The notes under the pieces: generated by a model
The model's input: the letters and a program-made list of their open reading frames with translations, nothing else
The model's database searches: none
What the model was told of the DNA's origin: nothing
Translations under genes and position numbers: made by a program
Virus record (IMG/VR): IMGVR_UViG_3300035088_000004
Coordinates: 1 to 64,000 of that record
Direction: 5' to 3' (one strand)
DNA length: 64,000 nucleotides
Origin: a virus
Part shown: piece after piece, positions 8,993 through 32,553 of the stretch
Position numbering within the stretch: the first letter of the stretch is position 1
Layout of the letters: each line of letters starts with the position of its first letter

Positions 8993-9229
8993 ATGCGAAC
9001 ACGGAATGGTTTTAGGCCTTGTCCTAAGTGTAATGGTAGCGGAGAGATCGTTGATCCAGTGGAACAGGGGCGAAAGATGAGAGCTTTACGAACTGCGTCA
9101 GGTAAGACATTACGGGAAGTAGCAAGGGTTGTTAGACATTCTCCCGCTTATATCAGCGATCTGGAACTTGGAAGACGCGGCTGGAATCAATCCTTAATCG
9201 AAAAGTACAAGGCTGCTGTTCGCGCTTAG
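8993..9229 (+). CDS. XRE-family HTH regulator with N-terminal zinc knuckle
   Basis: A 78-residue protein. The N-terminus has CPKCNGSG, a DnaJ-like Cys turn with only one CxxC pair visible. Residues 25-75 form a Cro/C1-type helix-turn-helix (GRKMRALRTASGKTLREVAR, then SPAYISDLELGRRGWNQSLI). No Shine-Dalgarno sequence precedes it; its promoter places the transcript start almost at the ATG. It stands in front of the recombination/replication block and may control it. Confidence 0.8.
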   Translation: MRTRNGFRPCPKCNGSGEIVDPVEQGRKMRALRTASGKTLREVARVVRHSPAYISDLELGRRGWNQSLIEKYKAAVRA

Positions 9230-22574: not shown

Positions 22575-22970
22575 ATTGACTGGCCCTGACGCGGGGCGCT
22601 CCTAAGAAGGTCTACGGGCCGGAGGAGGTCGTACTCGGCAGGGAATTCTTGGGTCGTTGTAAGGACCGAGGGAATCCGTAGGCAGAAGGTCAAGTGAAAG
22701 AGTTGACCGCTCAGAAACGTGGGCCGTAAGGCTGATAAGGAGTACGAGTAACGGCAACTTCCTAACGGGTAGCAATGGCCCAAGGGTTATTCAGGTGGTC
22801 GTAACCGACTGTCAGCGGCATGACTTAATTGGTCGGGGCGCGAGAAGCAGGTGGAAGGCTAACTCGCATGTTCGATTAGCAACTTAGACATGGAAAGGAG
22901 TATCTCGGACCGAAACTACAGCAACAGGTAGAAAGGGAGAGGCGCTTGCTGGAGACGGTGGGCGTCTCTT
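22575..22970 (+). ncRNA. Structured non-coding segment, candidate RNA
   Basis: About 400 nt without a credible reading frame, between convergent genes. Complementary segments: 22580-22586 with 22616-22622 (7 bp, one G-U), 22629-22636 with 22740-22747 (8 bp), hairpin 22688-22693/22703-22708 (6 bp), a GNRA-loop hairpin 22722-22733 (loop GTAA), 22805-22811 with 22830-22836 (7 bp, two G-U) and 22938-22945 with 22962-22969 (8 bp, one G-U). G-U pairs occur on the plus strand, which favours that as the RNA strand. The last hairpin may end transcription. Function unknown. Confidence 0.45.
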
Positions 22971-24130: not shown

Positions 24131-24724
24131 CTAACGTGGCCTTATTGCAAATGCAATTCCTACTACGACTGAGCCGATGGTTATCAGCGATACGAGCAGG
24201 CCAACGGCGATGATTGCATAAGTGACAGTGTTCTTAGCTCCTGTGCCTTTGCCCGCGCCTTCATAACTTGACTTCTCCAACGCTGAAATCCGGTTGTTGT
24301 ATTCCAAGTCGCGAGCCGCATTAGCCTGTGCAAGCGTTGTCGCTGTCGTGTTCAACACCGCCCGAATGTCATTAGCGGTTGTCTCCGCTGCTCGTGCTAC
24401 CAGTTGGACTGCTGCAAGTGTTCGCTCTGCTTCCGTCAGCCTTGCCGTCTCGTCGCTCTTGCGAAACGCTTCCAGCTTCTGCTGCTCCATCAAATGGATT
24501 TCTCTGTCGTGCTTTTGATGAGCATCCGACAGTTTCTCCATCCATCTGATTGTCTCTTCCAGCCGCCGGATCTCCGCGCCAAGATAGCGATTGTGCATCT
24601 CGCGCAGATCGTCCTGACGCTTGTTGGCTGCGCTGGTTAGATCGAGAACGTTCTTTGTCGGATCGATCACGGCCCCGCCGTAGGCGTCTACCCCTATTCC
24701 TGTTGCTGGTAGTTTTCGCGCCAA
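24131..24724 (-). CDS. Coiled-coil protein with C-terminal membrane anchor
   Basis: A 197-residue protein from TTG 24724. It has a short N-terminal region, a long coiled coil (about residues 35-150) and a C-terminal transmembrane helix (YAIIAVGLLVSLITIGSVVV). This is a tail-anchored topology. It lies directly after a small multi-pass membrane gene; together they could form a lysis or envelope-interaction set. Confidence 0.6.
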   Translation of the reverse strand: MARKLPATGIGVDAYGGAVIDPTKNVLDLTSAANKRQDDLREMHNRYLGAEIRRLEETIRWMEKLSDAHQKHDREIHLMEQQKLEAFRKSDETARLTEAERTLAAVQLVARAAETTANDIRAVLNTTATTLAQANAARDLEYNNRISALEKSSYEGAGKGTGAKNTVTYAIIAVGLLVSLITIGSVVVGIAFAIRPR

Positions 24725-25227: not shown

Positions 25228-25566
25228 TTATTTCTCCTCTGATTGTTTAGGTTGATTGATTGCCTGATTCATTTCCCCGGCGTCCTGATCTAGTTCCGAC
25301 GCAAGTTGGTCCACCTTGGACTGATCGTCATTGTCGATGATACCGAGAATCAAATCCAGCTTAGCGTTGATAAATCCCAGGTCGGGGAAATGCACGCCTG
25401 TCTCTAGTAGCTCGATGAGATGGTCTACTTTCTGCTCAAGTCGAGCTTCTTTCAGGTTGACGATCGCCTCAGCAATACGCGCCAGCGCGTTCCTCTGCGC
25501 CGTTGCCTGAGTCAGCCATTCCTGAAACTGTGCGGAGGTAAGTTCGATACGCTCAAAGTCGCTCAT
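25228..25566 (-). CDS. Helical hypothetical protein
   Basis: A 112-residue acidic, nearly all-helical protein with a coiled-coil tendency (LARIAEAIVNLKEARLEQKV, HLIELLETG). One base from the next gene. No family recognised. Confidence 0.6.
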   Translation of the reverse strand: MSDFERIELTSAQFQEWLTQATAQRNALARIAEAIVNLKEARLEQKVDHLIELLETGVHFPDLGFINAKLDLILGIIDNDDQSKVDQLASELDQDAGEMNQAINQPKQSEEK

Positions 25567-25576
25567 TGATTAACCT

Positions 25577-25870
25577 CTACGGCCACTGCGTTCCGACCCC
25601 TATTACCGGCAACGGCTTCGGATTCCTTTGGCAAACACTTGCATCGCCGTTCATAACCAGCTGCGGATAATTCGGCAGTGGGTTGAGTGCTGCGGCTAAT
25701 GCACGCAAGGTACGATCATCACTCCCATCAGCACACAGTTGCTTGAACTTAGCCTGCGCCTCACCCCGCGACATGATAACAGCAGGTTGATTGGCGTCAA
25801 TGGTTACGGCGACAGTTGGGCCTTGGGCCAGTGCCGCCGCAATGACGATGCCGATTAGTCCGTTGGTCAT
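25577..25870 (-). CDS. Secreted small protein
   Basis: A 97-residue protein with an N-terminal hydrophobic segment (MTNGLIGIVIAAALAQGPTV) that looks like a signal peptide. The rest holds two cysteines and a Pro-rich end. No Shine-Dalgarno sequence is visible; the stretch just upstream is the structured segment 25886-26640, so translation may depend on that RNA. Confidence 0.5.
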   Translation of the reverse strand: MTNGLIGIVIAAALAQGPTVAVTIDANQPAVIMSRGEAQAKFKQLCADGSDDRTLRALAAALNPLPNYPQLVMNGDASVCQRNPKPLPVIGVGTQWP

Positions 25871-25885
25871 AAGTGTTTAGTTCAA

Positions 25886-26640
25886 CCCAACGCGCCCCGT
25901 GCCTGTTCCGGTATAGCCGTTCCGCAGTTATCCCGTTGCTGGCTGCCGGGGGCGCGTCAGAGTCGGGGCTGCGAGTGGGAAGCGGCAAAACCATAGATCC
26001 GAAGATCCACGTCTAAGCGCGTCTTACGAAATCGCGCTCCATCCCACTCGCATTGTCAAAGGTTGCGCGGCGCGTGGGTCACATTGAAGTGTTCATCTAT
26101 CACGCCTTCTCATCGCCTCCATGACAGAAGACCGCGCATCAAGTTGAGGCGTCAGTAGCTATCTGACCTTACCACGTAGCAAGCTCGCTAATCTGCATTG
26201 CGTACGGCCTCAGTGTCAATCCCCGCAACACCGCATGTCTCCCAACAAGAGGCTGCTCAACTCCTATCCAGCCATGAATCAAGCGTCCCGGTTACGGTGT
26301 TGCGGGAAAGGGGTTGGGCTGAAGCACCGGGCTTATCCCTCGATTAATCGTTGTACCGCGTTGTTATCGACACAGCCAACAATCACCAGCGCCCCAGCCC
26401 ACAATCAATGAACCGGAGGTCAGGTAGGGCTACAGGGAGGGCTCCGTGCGCCGTTCCTTACTTATGCTGGGCATCGCTCCGGTTCAAATTAGATTACATA
26501 GCCTAGCGCCTCAGTCGTAGCCATCTTTACCCTTCTGGGTTGGCGACTTTAACCGCGATGGCGTGCTGTTTCGGACTTCGCTACGACGCGAGCTTACTAA
26601 GCATCTCCACGGAAAGGCTATGTAATGTTAATTCAGAGTT
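25886..26640 (-). ncRNA. Large structured non-coding RNA candidate
   Basis: About 750 nt with no credible gene and eight long-range helices in series: 26616-26626/26493-26503 (12 bp plus 5 more past a small loop), 26580-26587/26514-26521 (8), 26477-26486/26409-26418 (10), 26386-26401/26315-26330 (16), 26293-26308/26220-26235 (16), 26132-26138/26064-26070 (7-8), 26042-26052/25970-25980 (11) and 25949-25961/25886-25898 (13). On the minus strand the terminal or internal mismatches become G-U pairs (4, 2 and 3 in three helices); on the plus strand they would be A-C. The RNA is thus minus-strand. Its size and phage setting recall GOLLD and ROOL RNAs, but no sequence match is claimed. Confidence 0.7.
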
Positions 26641-26753
26641 CAAAGATCAGTGTGTCACTGCGATTATAATCAACAGCACCATCATCATCCCAACACTCAC
26701 CAACCCCGGCGTCGGAGGCGTGCAGGCGTGGTGGATGAAGCGGGTGAAGGTGG

Positions 26754-26981
26754 TCATTGGCTGCTGGCTCCTATTAACTTGCCGACTATCCCCAACGGCA
26801 ACACAACAGCTACAAACAACACCAACCCAGCAACTCTCCCAACTACCCCGATCAACTTATCTCCAACCTCTACGTCAAGCCGATCCGGCGTGATGATGGT
26901 GGTGAGCAGGTGGAGTGGGTGACGCAGATAGACAGCATCATCATCCAACTCAGCCATACAACCAGCAACCAACTCACTCAT
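26754..26981 (-). CDS. Hypothetical protein with C-terminal hydrophobic segment
   Basis: A 75-residue frame whose ATG lies inside the last codons of the upstream gene (ATGAGTGA). N-terminal acidic domain (CMAELDDDAVYLRHPLHLLT), C-terminal hydrophobic stretch (VVGRVAGLVLFVAVVLPLGI) likely to enter the membrane. Start-stop coupling supports it. Its end abuts the structured RNA segment. Confidence 0.5.
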   Translation of the reverse strand: MSELVAGCMAELDDDAVYLRHPLHLLTTIITPDRLDVEVGDKLIGVVGRVAGLVLFVAVVLPLGIVGKLIGASSQ

Positions 26982-27213
26982 GGCCCGCTCGCTTCAATGC
27001 GTCATTCTCAGCCCTAAACTGCGCGTATGTCGCCGCTGCATCAGCCAGCACTTCAGCACGCGTCTTACCTGTCGCCTGCTGCCGTCTGGCAATCTCAGCT
27101 TCAGCGATGCCTATCAGTTTCTGGCCCAACACGCCGAGTTCGGGATGACCACTAAGTCCGGCGAGGATGGGCAGTGCCTGTTGCAGACCGGCAATAATGT
27201 CGGAGAAGTTCAT
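26974..27213 (-). CDS. Small helical protein
   Basis: A 79-residue protein: amphipathic N-terminus (IIAGLQQALPILAGLSGHPE) and a charged helix (EAEIARRQQATGKTRAEVLA). Possibly membrane-associated. Overlaps both neighbours by a few bases, in line with an operon. Function unknown. Confidence 0.6.
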   Translation of the reverse strand: MNFSDIIAGLQQALPILAGLSGHPELGVLGQKLIGIAEAEIARRQQATGKTRAEVLADAAATYAQFRAENDALKRAGHE

Positions 27214-27662
27214 TTGACTACTCCCTCTATCGTATCAAGATGCTTGTCGAGTGAGCTGACCGCCTTCTGCGCCTTGAACGGCAACAGGTCAGCTAACACG
27301 CTGGAGTACAACTGTCGCAACTCGGCGAGATTGTCTCTGACGAATTGCAAGTCCTGTGGCGGCAGCGTGCCTTGCGGGTACTTCTTGTCGAGTGCGATTA
27401 GCGAGTCATTGAACTTCTCACCCTTGTCGCCGATGGTTCCGAGCTTGTTGGCGATGCGATCCTTGGCGTCAAGCGGCATTTTGCCTGCTGTGTAGAATTC
27501 AGCAACCACGCGATTAGCCAACAACACATCATGGGCCAGTTCATTCGACGCATTGGCCATGCGGTCTAAGTCGCTGGATGACGGGCAAGCGGTGGCAAGT
27601 AGGGCGACTGTGACAATCGCTGCGCAGAGTGCAGGTGATCGATACCGTTGGATTCTCTTCAT
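27210..27662 (-). CDS. Lipoprotein
   Basis: A 150-residue protein with a basic N-terminus (MKRIQRYRS), a hydrophobic segment and a lipobox LLATAC (cysteine about 26), the mark of signal peptidase II processing. The mature part is helical. Phage lipoproteins act as outer-membrane spanins, superinfection-exclusion factors or receptor blockers. The neighbouring membrane protein upstream (27659) and the Rz-like gene at 22972 make a lysis/envelope role plausible. Confidence 0.7.
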   Translation of the reverse strand: MKRIQRYRSPALCAAIVTVALLATACPSSSDLDRMANASNELAHDVLLANRVVAEFYTAGKMPLDAKDRIANKLGTIGDKGEKFNDSLIALDKKYPQGTLPPQDLQFVRDNLAELRQLYSSVLADLLPFKAQKAVSSLDKHLDTIEGVVK

Positions 27663-27940
27663 CGACTAGCCTCTTCCTGTTTAATCACTTCACTAACGGT
27701 AGCGGTAGATGGTCCGGCAATGGCCCGCTCAATCTGCGCGTTGGCTTTCTCAACTGGAACGACTTGCGAGCGGGTGAGCAGGATGTTGAAGAAGCCGACA
27801 ATCACGCTCACCAGCAACATCACCTGCGCCACCTGATCGCCAGTCCAGTGGATTAAGCCGAAGATGATTAACGTCGGGATAATTGCCCGGACCACTTCGG
27901 ATAACCCGCCGAGTATGGCCGCTGGTTCATGATTCAGCAT
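27659..27940 (-). CDS. Two-helix membrane protein, holin-like
   Basis: A 93-residue protein with two hydrophobic segments (VVRAIIPTLIIFGLIHW and VAQVMLLVSVIVGFFNILLT) and a charged C-terminal tail. Size and topology fit class II holins. Its stop overlaps the start of the lipoprotein gene. No endolysin is recognised next to it, so holin remains an inference. Confidence 0.6.
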   Translation of the reverse strand: MLNHEPAAILGGLSEVVRAIIPTLIIFGLIHWTGDQVAQVMLLVSVIVGFFNILLTRSQVVPVEKANAQIERAIAGPSTATVSEVIKQEEASR

Positions 27941-28019: not shown

Positions 28020-30212
28020 TTATTGCACGGTTATCGCTATGTTCTTAGTCCCACATGGCCCGCTGATCGTCACCACCGCCGACTTCTTCTTTGCCGCCAG
28101 CGAGAACTCAACAATCGCACTGCCAAGGTTGACTGGTTGCAGGGCGGGCGTCACCGTCACCTGACCCGAGGTTGATGTAGCTGAAACCGTGGAACTCTTT
28201 GGAATCCCGGTTAATGTGACAATCAGCTTGCCTGTTCCCCACGCTGGGATGACTGGACTATTCGTGGTCATCACGCAGAGGGGTGGTGTAGGCGTCGGTT
28301 GTGGCGTTGGTTGCGGCGTCGTTGTTGGCGTCGGACTACTACCCGGCGTTGGACTGGCAATCGGTGTAGCGGTCGGTGTCGGAGTAGCCACAGCACCCGG
28401 CTCCACGTCACCCGCTCCAGCCCACGCATCTCCGGTCCACCTGTACCACGGGCCGAGGACTCCCTGCACGTAGACTGCTCCGTCGAACCATTTGTACATC
28501 AGGCCAAAGCCGCCGCCGGTGTGGATACCGTTACGCAGGGTTTCCCTGTTCAGCCCCAACGTCCACGTCCCACCTGAACTATCGGTAATCGTCGCTCCTG
28601 TCGCTCCATCGGCAGATACGTTGCCCGATGGCGTTGATTGCAGGATGGGCGGGGTTGGGGTTGGCGTGGGAGTCGCTGTCACACTCGGCAGTGGGCTTGC
28701 TGTCGGCGATGGTAACGGCCCACCTGTCCCACCCAGCCGCCAAGCAAGATACCGCCCGCCTGAGCGATACGATTCGTCATACTCCTTGCCTCGGTAATGG
28801 GCCAACCCGCGATAGCCGTCCTTACCGCTGTACGTCGCGTCAAATATCTCATCCCCCCACTTGCGGAATTTGTCGTCCAAAGTGATTGAGTATGCATAGC
28901 CGAATTGACTAATTGCCGTCGCATTCAATTGTCGGGCATCAGAGACTAGATTGCCGTCAGCGGGAGGAAACGGATTTGACGCGCTACCACATCCTGTTTC
29001 ACATGAGAATCCGGTATTAAACTTCCCGTGAACAAAGTAATACATCGTGCGCCAACCATTCGGGTTGTAGCTGTGGAGGTACTCATGCTCGACTGACTTG
29101 AGGATTGCCGCTTTGACGATAGGATCACCTGTCAGACGATGGACTGCGATCATCCCCTCGTTGAGAATGCCAACTTGAAACGGTTGTTCAATGCCTGTCA
29201 TGCCGTCAAGTGCCCCGGGACTTGAATCCTCGATACTAAATCGATACGAACCGTCATCGCTCTGTAACGCGGCATAGTAACTAACCGCGCTTCTCAACAC
29301 CTTCGCAAGAAACTCTGCGCGAATAGCCGGGTCAGGATCAACTGCCGCTTCATTTGCGGCGTACAGAGTCATAAACCCGCCGTCTCGCACACCGTAGTAC
29401 AAGCCCGCCTTTGTTGGGTCTTTCTGAGTCCAGTTTGTGGGTGCTTCCACCCAGCTATTGAACTGGTATCGAACGTAATCCCTGATCCACGGCCACATCT
29501 CCGGTCTGCCGTCTAAGGCGCGGAGTATTAAGCCGTTAAGACTAATCGAGCGCGGCGCAAGGGACTCTCCGCTTAACGAAACAAGATTCTTGCCATAGTC
29601 GATGACAGGTTGACTCCACCACGAATCATTTACCTTCCGTGCACAATCCAAAAACCGTTGATCACCTGTTCGGTAGTAGGTTTCATAACTCACATAGCCG
29701 AAGTCGTAGTAGTTCATGAACCCCTGATAGTTATCCATCTCGCTTGCTGATGGAGAAGCAATCGACTGCCCGGTCAATGTCGTCCCCTGCCACGGGAGCG
29801 TCAACGTCAACTGCGTATCACTCTCAACCGACGCTTTGATCTTGACGATCCTGCCTGCCGCCCCATTGCCGATAATCGCGTAGTCCTTTACCTCGGTTAG
29901 AAAGTGGGTGTTGGAGCCGATGACGATCTTACTACCGTTGGTAACTGCAACTGTGCCGCTAATCACCACGTTCCCCGGCGTGTGGGCCACGTCAGGAAAG
30001 GCGGAGCACAAAGTCAACCCACGCTCGACGGCGGTTGAGTCAAACCAACTTGCGCCGGGGATTGTCGATGTGCCTGACTTGACCTGCGGCCCGATGATGA
30101 AGGCGACTTCAGCGGAGGGGAAGGTTACGGCATCGGTTTGTGCAGCAGAGTGGTGGACAGTGAATCCGGCAACTGTAACAGCCACCGTTACAAATATAGC
30201 AAGTAGTCTCAT
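28020..30212 (-). CDS. Secreted multidomain glycan-active enzyme (toroid fold) with PT linkers
   Basis: About 730 residues from ATG 30212 (AAGGAAAT upstream). Signal peptide (MRLLAIFVTVAVTVAGF, cut near HHSAAQ). Residues about 25-510 hold repeated aromatic-helical motifs such as MNYYDFGYVSYETYYRTGDQ and YYGVRDGGFMTLYAANEA, in the style of (alpha/alpha) toroid lyases or hydrolases. Two Pro/Thr linkers (PTPTPTPP and TPTPTATPIASPTPGSSPTP) flank a Trp/Gly-rich module (GPWYRWTGDAWAGAG) like a carbohydrate-binding domain, and a beta domain ends it. A secreted enzyme in a phage could degrade host or neighbour polysaccharide. The exact family is not identified. Confidence 0.65.
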   Translation of the reverse strand: MRLLAIFVTVAVTVAGFTVHHSAAQTDAVTFPSAEVAFIIGPQVKSGTSTIPGASWFDSTAVERGLTLCSAFPDVAHTPGNVVISGTVAVTNGSKIVIGSNTHFLTEVKDYAIIGNGAAGRIVKIKASVESDTQLTLTLPWQGTTLTGQSIASPSASEMDNYQGFMNYYDFGYVSYETYYRTGDQRFLDCARKVNDSWWSQPVIDYGKNLVSLSGESLAPRSISLNGLILRALDGRPEMWPWIRDYVRYQFNSWVEAPTNWTQKDPTKAGLYYGVRDGGFMTLYAANEAAVDPDPAIRAEFLAKVLRSAVSYYAALQSDDGSYRFSIEDSSPGALDGMTGIEQPFQVGILNEGMIAVHRLTGDPIVKAAILKSVEHEYLHSYNPNGWRTMYYFVHGKFNTGFSCETGCGSASNPFPPADGNLVSDARQLNATAISQFGYAYSITLDDKFRKWGDEIFDATYSGKDGYRGLAHYRGKEYDESYRSGGRYLAWRLGGTGGPLPSPTASPLPSVTATPTPTPTPPILQSTPSGNVSADGATGATITDSSGGTWTLGLNRETLRNGIHTGGGFGLMYKWFDGAVYVQGVLGPWYRWTGDAWAGAGDVEPGAVATPTPTATPIASPTPGSSPTPTTTPQPTPQPTPTPPLCVMTTNSPVIPAWGTGKLIVTLTGIPKSSTVSATSTSGQVTVTPALQPVNLGSAIVEFSLAAKKKSAVVTISGPCGTKNIAITVQ

Positions 30213-30229
30213 TTGACTATTTCCTTGGC

Positions 30230-30326
30230 TTTGCCTCAAAAAGGTCTAAACACCTTCGTTTGCCTCAAAAATCAAGTTGACCGATCTTCGCGCCGCGATT
30301 CGCGGCCAACCTGAGTTTGAGGCAAA
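30230..30326. repeat. Operator-like repeats upstream of the secreted enzyme
   Basis: TTTGCCTCAAAAA occurs twice, 29 bp apart (30230-30242 and 30259-30271), and its inverse TTTGAGGCAAA once (30316-30326). Between the second copy and the inverse lies a perfect GC-rich hairpin (GCCGCG-ATT-CGCGGC, 30292-30306). The first copy starts 18 bp before the start codon of the 28020 gene, so the set is well placed to regulate it. Confidence 0.65.
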
Positions 30327-30335
30327 GGATAGAAT

Positions 30336-30422
30336 TTAGATCTTAACTCCCATCGCGTTTAGCAACTGTTCCTCTTCAAACGTTAATTTACCCTCCGTGA
30401 ATCTGAGAAACAGGTCAAGCAT
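30336..30422 (-). CDS. 28-residue micropeptide
   Basis: ATG 30422 is preceded by AGAGGAA at a normal distance. The product is a short charged helix (MLDLFLRFTEGKLTFEEEQL followed by LNAMGVKI). It is followed on the same strand by the repeat-bearing leader of the secreted enzyme gene, so it could act as a leader peptide. No known homologue by eye. Confidence 0.5.
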   Translation of the reverse strand: MLDLFLRFTEGKLTFEEEQLLNAMGVKI

Positions 30423-30456
30423 GGTCGATTCCTCTTATACAGGTTTCGGTCGTGTA

Positions 30457-30491
30457 GGGGCTGGTGAGTGCTTCGAACACTTGCCAGTCCC
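30457..30491 (+). other. Long RNA hairpin
   Basis: A 14-bp stem: 30457-30470 pairs with 30478-30491 around a 7-nt loop CTTCGAA. Three pairs are G-U if read on the plus strand (30460-30488, 30465-30483, 30466-30482) and A-C on the minus strand, so it is a plus-strand RNA structure. No U-run follows, so it is unlikely to be a simple terminator. Confidence 0.6.
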
Positions 30492-30754
30492 GCTTCTAGC
30501 GAGGCCAACCACTATAGAGACATTGTTTCACACATGCAAGGGCCAATCCGAAATAATTCTTGATCAAAAATCCTGCGTGATTTACTCTTAGCGTGTCGTA
30601 AGCCCTACATTGTGGACGTTCTTCCGACAAGGTTGGAATGGACGTGACAAGAAACAAGGACGATGCGGGCGAGAACGATGTGTGCTGTTCTTTTACAACC
30701 AATCCCAGTTGAGTCTGATTTATATACCCTGGCCTAAGGCTAAGGGGGTTCTCA

Positions 30755-30865
30755 TCAGCCCAAGGCTGACAAAAACATATTAGGCAACCGTTCTTGTCTT
30801 GCCTAAGGTAAATCAAAGCTCGCTGTGCAAAAACTAGGAGACGCGGTACGTCTACCCTTTTTGCA
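30755..30865 (+). terminator. Hairpin cluster with terminator-like end
   Basis: Three consecutive hairpins: 30755-30760/30764-30769 (6 bp, loop CAA), 30780-30787/30799-30806 (8 bp, TTAGGCAA/TTGCCTAA) and a long imperfect one with 30826-30833/30858-30865 (TGCAAAAA/TTTTTGCA) outside and AGACG/CGTCT inside. It is followed by a T-run at 30874-30879. The rest of 30423-31080 shows no convincing gene; a minus-strand 106-codon frame there was rejected. Confidence 0.5.
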
Positions 30866-31080
30866 TGGCGGGCTTTTTTAGTTTGGACTTAGAACAGTTC
30901 GGCGTTCTTAACTTAAAGAAAGGGCTCACTTTATCGAGAGCTAAATCCTTAAATTGAAAAAGACTGGCGGCAACCAGTCTCTTTCAGAAAGCAAAATTGA
31001 CGATGAATCAAAAACCGCAAAGGCGGCACCCTCTTGGTGTCGGCATAGTAACTCGAAGCCCGATTACTGTGCAAGAGAAA

Positions 31081-31230: not shown

Positions 31231-32466
31231 TTACGCGGCGTGAGCTTCCGAAAAGTCTACGTCAATTCCTAACTCATGCTGTGACTGAATGACTACGCAG
31301 AGATTGTGGCAAAGCACCTTGCACAGTGCTTCGTTAATCTGCGCCGTGAGTGTCTTACTGCGAAGTCTCTGCCCAAACTTCGACTTGATCATGTGGAACG
31401 TCGTTTCAACGTTGGACCGCTTGTGATAGTGCGTCAAGAATTCTTCGCGGTGGTCTGTGTAGAATTCCAGCATTCGAGTCCACAGCGTTGACTTTGGACC
31501 ATAGTTGGTCTGTGCTTTGGAATTGGACTTGAACGGGATGTAAGGGATGGCCTTATGCCGCAAAGTCGTTAATAGATTCTCTCCGCTTAAATAGGCTTTG
31601 TCTGCGCTCACTTCTTTCAGCGTGAAACCGTTTCCGGCAGTCGCTTCGAGCAAAGGCTTGAAGTAACCGTGATCGTTTGAGTATCCATCGCTTATCTCAA
31701 CGGACGTAACCACGTTGGTTTTTACCCCACACATCAGATGCACCTTGATCCACATGCGCCGATCTTCTTCCTTGCCATACTTCACATCTAGCCAACGCGT
31801 GAATTGACCTGTGCTGAACCCCGAACTATCAACCGCGAAGTCTGATTCAATCGATTTGAGCGGCTGTGCACTCAACTTGATCAACTCATACAAGTACGGT
31901 GTCAATGCTTCGGCTTCGAGGTAACGAAAGACTGAATTATATGAAGGCATCTGAGACAGAAAGCCGCGTCTTCTCGCTTCCTGTAGATCACTCTGAAAGC
32001 GGCGACCTGAAACCGTAGAATAAACTTTGAACGTGCTGGCGAAGATAATGTCAGCCAACGATAGACGCGGCCTCCCGCGATGCTGCACAGGCTCAGGGAT
32101 GTTTCTGCATAGTTCGTAGAGCAATGCCTGTAGCTGTGACTTCTCTTGGGTCTGAGCGGCATTGTACGCGGGCCAATTCTGCGTGTAGGTCTTGCGCGTG
32201 ACCTTGACCGTTTCGGTTGTGATGGTCGCGCCGTCTGCGGTCTGCTCGCGTTGGATCGTGTATTCGACTGCAAAGATATGCTTGCATCTGGCGCTAGTGA
32301 ATTCGTGATCACGGCAAGTGCAACTCGGCTTTTCAGCGTCCAGCGCAACGGTGTACTTTTCCTGCTTATTGCTTTGTGAGGGAACAAGCCAAAGATTGCC
32401 TTTGCCTTGGCGCGTCAGTTTGGTTTTAGCGGCTATTTCAAGACCTTTGATCTCGCGTGGTTCCAT
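31231..32466 (-). CDS. DDE transposase with N-terminal SWIM zinc finger
   Basis: A 411-residue protein; ATG 32466 with AAGGAG at 9 nt is preferred over the longer frame from 32553. The SWIM finger is CTC-x9-CKH (C49, C51, C61, H63). The DDE core is seen in AVDSSGF, EVSADKAYL and SNVETTFHMIKSKFG. The fold is of the IS5/IS1182-like type; SWIM-DDE transposases form a group of insertion sequences common in environmental bacteria and archaea. The frame is intact. Terminal inverted repeats and a target duplication could not be identified with confidence. Confidence 0.85.
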   Translation of the reverse strand: MEPREIKGLEIAAKTKLTRQGKGNLWLVPSQSNKQEKYTVALDAEKPSCTCRDHEFTSARCKHIFAVEYTIQREQTADGATITTETVKVTRKTYTQNWPAYNAAQTQEKSQLQALLYELCRNIPEPVQHRGRPRLSLADIIFASTFKVYSTVSGRRFQSDLQEARRRGFLSQMPSYNSVFRYLEAEALTPYLYELIKLSAQPLKSIESDFAVDSSGFSTGQFTRWLDVKYGKEEDRRMWIKVHLMCGVKTNVVTSVEISDGYSNDHGYFKPLLEATAGNGFTLKEVSADKAYLSGENLLTTLRHKAIPYIPFKSNSKAQTNYGPKSTLWTRMLEFYTDHREEFLTHYHKRSNVETTFHMIKSKFGQRLRSKTLTAQINEALCKVLCHNLCVVIQSQHELGIDVDFSEAHAA

Positions 32467-32553
32467 TATGAGCATCTCCTTGCCTTTAAGAAGCGATTCG
32501 CTCACAATGTCTTTACCGGAGATCAAGTGCGAGCAATCGCGTTTGATTTTCAA

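Follow-up and report, generated by a model that had tools for sequence, protein, structure and literature searches.

To our knowledge, few large structured RNAs are known from phages, and no function has been found for GOLLD and ROOL. ROOL makes kissing loops both within and between its molecules. GOLLD is a phage-borne RNA of about 800 nt with many helices and no protein, often located near tRNA islands, and its level rises during lysis; ROOL is a large RNA of phages and prophages that has multiple pseudoknots and no known protein partner, and both form cages that consist of RNA only, which in GOLLD is a homo-oligomer (PMC12286853). OLE is a large ornate RNA of bacteria (PMC12286853).

The locus described here lies in a window, i.e. 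the whole stretch of DNA that was analysed, of 64,000 of the 64,472 bases of the IMG/VR virus record IMGVR_UViG_3300035088_000004. A preliminary description, made from the letters of this DNA, had placed a candidate for a large structured non-coding RNA on the minus strand of positions 25886 to 26640. The folding statistics, the lack of a coding signal and a relative of one of its domains in a second phage bear this out.

The locus and its coding potential

The early genes of the phage are found on the plus strand, up to approximately 22.5 kb of the window, and the structural and late genes mostly occupy the minus strand between about 61 kb and 23 kb. The RNA segment sits on this late strand between two short open frames, and a holin-like gene belongs to the same late cluster a few genes upstream. 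The features of the region are the following:

24131-24724, minus strand: late gene that served as the anchor in a gene-anchored search for relatives of the locus
25577-25870, minus strand: predicted gene, a 97-aa open frame with a weakly positive codon score, starting 16 nt past the RNA
25886-26640, minus strand: large structured RNA candidate (folding and helix statistics, no Rfam match, no coding signal); its 5' end is presumed near 26640 and its 3' end near 25886
26754-26981, minus strand: 75-aa open frame upstream of the RNA, no family match in Pfam or PHROGs
26974-27213, minus strand: 79-aa late gene upstream of the RNA; the phage L002 has a gene of similar place and size
27659-27940, minus strand: holin-like gene of the late cluster (PHROG 9752, E 9e-5)

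None of the proteins neighbouring the RNA segment has a match in Pfam, and no promoter or terminator consensus was found adjoining it. The 97-aa frame has no clear ribosome site, no Pfam or PHROGs match and no relative among viral contigs. Inside 25886-26640 no frame has a positive codon score when judged by the codon use of the phage (the best value is 0.0), and nearly all of the flanking genes do, which agrees with the earlier statement that the segment holds no credible gene. Since the segment is on the late-gene strand, a few genes past the holin-like gene, the RNA is probably made late in infection.

Elsewhere in the window, a DDE transposase with a SWIM zinc finger (31231-32553, minus strand) has the nearest match found, at 87% identity, in a Blastocatellia genome (L99/L099) and is also related to transposases in archaeal genomes. 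Judged by this nearest match, the host of the phage is probably a soil acidobacterium. Within the 400-nt non-coding region where the early and the late genes meet, a 71-nt stretch (22794-22864, plus strand) is 79% identical to positions 9068-9138 (plus strand) of L002, and the changes look compensatory (GUCA-GCGGCA-UGAC versus GGUA-GCGGCA-UACC). This stretch has no Rfam match, and a pattern scan of viral contigs returned only the contig of L002 and one unrelated match.

Helices and domains of the RNA

Six helices with at least ten Watson-Crick pairs follow each other in series on the minus strand between 25887 and 26626. In 300 dinucleotide shuffles the mean number of such helices is 0.51 and the maximum is 3; for helices of at least 12 such pairs, 3 are observed versus a shuffle mean of 0.05. 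Helices in series had been reported in the preliminary description, and our check, which covered these six long ones, confirms them. The domains are as follows:

D1, 26493-26626, minus strand: 134 nt; helix 26626-26615/26504-26493, 12 pairs, no G-U; z -2.6
D2, 26409-26486, minus strand: 78 nt; helix 26486-26477/26418-26409, 10 pairs, no G-U; z -3.5
D3, 26315-26401, minus strand: 87 nt; helix 26401-26386/26330-26315, 16 pairs, four of them G-U
D4, 26220-26308, minus strand: 89 nt; helix 26308-26293/26235-26220, 16 pairs, two of them G-U; z -3.6
D5 segment, 26053-26219, minus strand: 167 nt, weakly structured; z -0.1
D6, 25970-26052, minus strand: 83 nt, three-way junction; helix 26052-26042/25980-25970, 11 pairs, no G-U
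D7, 25886-25961, minus strand: 76 nt; helix 25960-25949/25898-25887, 12 pairs, two of them G-U; z -2.9

The domains are not equally well defined. The closing pairs of D1 have probabilities mostly of 0.9-1.0, and the domain folds only moderately better than its shuffles. The closing helix of D3 runs on into a second long helix. The closing helix of D7 has a model probability of about 0.4 in the whole RNA and competes with other pairings. D5 folds at the level of its shuffles and, as modelled, is not convincing as a structured domain; its 3' end belongs to the 102-nt match with the phage L157 that is described below.

The linkers between the domains are mostly 6-9 nt, and D2, D3, D4, D6 and D7 measure 76-89 nt. 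These dimensions would also suit a precursor that is cut into several small RNAs of 75-90 nt, one per domain, and in the related array of L157 some domains measure 61-88 nt and others are longer. We consider such a precursor quite unlikely, since no tRNA and no Rfam small RNA was found and the domains are mutually dissimilar in a self-comparison. We favour the explanation that the minus strand of 25886-26640 encodes an untranslated phage RNA of approximately 750 nt, which would consist of hairpin and junction domains set in a row, each largely independent of the others and mostly separated from the next by a very short linker.

The folding energies point in the same direction. With pairs spanning up to 150 positions, the minus strand folds at -291.9 versus -248.8 ± 9.3 for its shuffles (z -4.6, 0 of 100 shuffles), and the plus strand of the segment has a z of -3.2 (1 of 100 shuffles). 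The strongest minus-strand bias is seen in D3 (minus-strand z -6.9, plus-strand z -1.3). Among windows sampled from the genome only the region at 30.5 kb folds comparably, and only 30201-31000 exceeds the RNA segment in helix density.

The imperfect pairs of the six long helices comprise 8 G-U and 0 A-C pairs on the minus strand, whereas those of 30201-31000 are mixed (9 versus 9). The G-U pairs had been noticed before: the four in 26386-26401/26315-26330 and the two in 26293-26308/26220-26235 were found again, and of the three assigned to 25949-25961/25886-25898 two lie in the 12-pair helix and the third is the possible pair 25961/25886. The count stands; as the helices were chosen for stability, the bias alone is suggestive.

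The fact that the plus strand also beats its shuffles is what one would expect of palindrome-rich DNA, and the segment might then represent DNA features (an origin, packaging or recombination palindromes) or chance. This reading is very improbable in our view: the imperfect pairs are all G-U on one strand, D3 folds far better on that strand than on the other, and the pairing of D6 is kept by compensatory and G-U changes (see below), which are unnecessary for DNA palindromes. The segment is long, non-coding and, on one strand, more stably structured than its shuffles, and we regard 25886-26640 with high confidence as a genuine structured RNA.

The stretch at 30240-31000 is also non-coding and strongly structured, with a z of -6.8 on the plus and -6.5 on the minus strand. 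It contains a 29-nt inverted repeat (30241-30269/30316-30344) and terminator-like hairpins, and an Acidobacteria genome (L100, 7146-7641) has 82-86% identity to its parts 30267-30309 and 30419-30540. A putative 28-aa frame with an upstream GAGG, MLDLFLRFTEGKLTFEEEQLLNAMGVKI, was read by eye inside this stretch (around 30340-30430, minus strand).

Conservation of D6 in a second phage

At the gathering score, Rfam gave no family for the whole window, and at E values up to 10 the region 25500-27000 returned chance-level entries only, with no GOLLD, ROOL, OLE or introns among them. Membership in GOLLD or ROOL, which the preliminary description had left open, is thus not what Rfam indicates. The window contains no tRNA genes; the ideas of a tRNA array and of a recombination site were dropped as there was no match at all. 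The size and the phage setting would be compatible with a self-splicing intron or its remnant, but no group I or II match appeared at permissive thresholds, no interrupted gene was recognised and L002 has no uninterrupted version, so that we hold an intron to be extremely improbable.

Relatives of the RNA were sought in several ways. BLASTN against phages and plasmids found none, translated-pattern searches of viral and genome contigs were empty or at chance level, and DNA searches of 49 phages with a related terminase and of 162 genomes from the class of the nearest transposase host gave nothing. The neighbouring proteins, used as queries, had few relatives until the anchor gene 24131-24724 was used, which led to 55 loci. 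Ordinary BLASTN of the RNA against these 55 loci gave no match, and a D3-D4 model was empty or at chance level in the 49 phages, the 162 genomes and the 55 loci. The relative, L157 (phage record IMGVR_UViG_3300035691_000003), was found by a screen for runs of helices followed by reading of its non-coding stretch. A D6 model, run on 99 phage records and on 396 genomes from the phylum of the host, gave L157 as its sole match. A weak match of this model in G228 was rejected, with many broken pairs. No comparable helix array was found in L002/G001 and G003/L095; L002 and L095 are relatives of the window phage, and L002 even has neighbouring genes in common with it. Note that absence from phage records is weak evidence because many of them are fragments. 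In L095 a non-coding gap near the late end (1950-2330) shows modest structure only.

In the D6 region, i.e. D6 and a short stretch before it, the window and L157 are 67% identical over 102 nt. With sensitive scoring on sequence alone, this match has an E value of 1.8e-4 versus all the loci compared (the next best has 0.49), which is the fair figure, given that a screen preceded the choice of L157. The local alignment of the window with L157 scores 158 versus 88 ± 8 in shuffles, and none of the 100 shuffles reaches 158.

The D6 alignment (81 columns) has in both phages a ten-pair closing helix around two hairpins, whose caps, GUAA and UUCG, are kept in both. Sixteen of the 27 pairs are invariant, six show two-sided changes, four show one-sided changes via G-U and one is broken in L157. 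Altogether 98.1% of the cells are paired, as opposed to 33-43% if the partners are slid by 1-3 columns; shuffles of the 3' letters reach the observed value in 10 of 500 cases, a weak control with two sequences only. Six G-U cells would be A-C on the opposite strand, which indicates that the minus strand is the structured one. Structure kept by compensatory changes, the check suggested in the preliminary description, is seen for D6 only, in two sequences, and the other domains are supported by single-sequence folding only. They show no significant sequence similarity to L157, and on this comparison homology is demonstrated just for D6 together with the short sequence that precedes it.

The RNA of L157 (13673-12722, minus strand) has eight domains in series with a z of -4.3 on the same strand, and D6 is followed by a 76-nt domain as in the window. 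It has no Rfam match, ROOL included, and there is no tRNA in L157. The two phages share several early genes and a few of the late accessory ones; no terminase match was seen between them. Directly after the RNA of L157 there is an 83-aa cysteine-containing protein, predicted to be secreted, with a good ribosome site (12683-12432, minus strand). It starts about 40 nt past the last domain and is not similar to the 97-aa protein of the window.

A short frame directly after the RNA, on the same strand, in both phages is what a leader would show likewise, and it counts against our explanation. The RNA could belong to the late messenger, as a long structured leader or a segment between cistrons, and govern how the gene at 25870-25577 is processed or translated: the RNA is on the late-gene strand, has no promoter or terminator of its own that we could find, and ends just ahead of where the 97-aa frame starts, and the short gene of L157 is similarly placed. 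Nevertheless, we consider a leader unlikely. The proteins following the RNA are dissimilar, the two phages differ in where the RNA lies and how it is oriented with respect to the late cluster, and 750-950 nt in seven or eight domains exceeds the leaders known to us. In L157 the RNA lies on the early-gene strand, opposite to that of the late genes, which points to a separate gene. That the window RNA is an independent gene, as opposed to a piece of one messenger, is in our judgement fairly likely.

Wider links and comparison with described RNAs

In L157 the domain that immediately precedes D6 on its 5' side has GCCGG-UAUCAAGC-CCGGC and a closing helix at its end. A 26-nt motif consisting of this hairpin and its flank is also present in the Komagataeibacter phages phiKX1 and phiKX2, in an intergenic place just after tRNA-Met. 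The same motif occurs, moreover, in a plasmid region of Roseomonas mucosa, intergenic and just after a GH108 family gene, and in the Caulobacter phage DMCA between a transposase and an integrase. The BLASTN E values of these links are modest (7e-3 for L157 versus phiKX). The loci of this structured intergenic RNA are:

L214, 2770-3090; L221, 1894-2026; L215, 2391-2526: structured intergenic RNA of Komagataeibacter and Caulobacter phages and a Roseomonas plasmid

phiKX2 and DMCA are clearly homologous (about 300 nt aligned, score 421 versus 191 ± 18). In the three-way comparison of phiKX2, DMCA and Roseomonas 17 pairs are kept with two two-sided changes, a weak result by the shuffle control (55 of 500). 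In phiKX2 Rfam finds tRNA only, and the intergenic RNA of phiKX1/2, DMCA and the Roseomonas plasmid looks like an undescribed RNA family. It resembles the L157 RNA in the 26-nt motif and the intergenic place and differs in being shorter and in its neighbours (tRNA-Met, the GH108 gene, transposase and integrase). The hairpin was not found in the window RNA, so the link of the window to these elements is indirect, via L157. The exact stretches that the window RNA has in common with the Komagataeibacter RNA (TCAGATAGCT, GGTTGAACT) are short and at about chance level, and they were discarded.

The patchy distribution, i.e. the presence in L157 and absence from L002 and L095, and the changed orientation suggest a module of its own, which would move between phages with a changing number of domains. 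Two members only, and one of seven domains supported by comparison, count against this explanation. Leaving its role aside, we lean towards the RNA being real, having its own gene and representing a new class. More tentatively, the class may be a large modular RNA of Acidobacteria phages with a variable number of domains that acts as a free RNA scaffold during infection and is related, via the hairpin module next to D6, to the alphaproteobacterial intergenic RNAs. Compact domains with exposed loops could assemble as in GOLLD and ROOL or gather proteins. By this analogy the likeliest role would be that of an RNA scaffold, assembling while virus is being produced, its loops contacting the RNA itself or proteins of the host or the phage. 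Even so, a scaffold function is a possible but rather doubtful idea.

In comparison with the described systems, the window RNA is like GOLLD phage-borne, similar in size, rich in helices and without a protein. Unlike GOLLD, it has no Rfam match even at permissive E values, and the tRNA neighbours frequent in GOLLD are missing from both the window and L157. It shares with ROOL that it is a large phage RNA, but it has no Rfam match and no tRNA island, and a row of domains takes the place of the ROOL pseudoknots. OLE is a large RNA as well; the window RNA differs in having no Rfam match and in belonging to a phage genome. What is supported is a real large RNA outside Rfam and of an already known kind, the large structured phage RNA, and as compensating changes preserve one domain in another phage, it seems to be a genuine new class of these. 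One more class, with a different, modular plan and a phage lineage of its own, would suggest that RNAs of this kind have repeatedly arisen or spread among phages. With domains compact enough for making and probing singly, this RNA offers, next to GOLLD and ROOL, another system for asking what large phage RNAs do.
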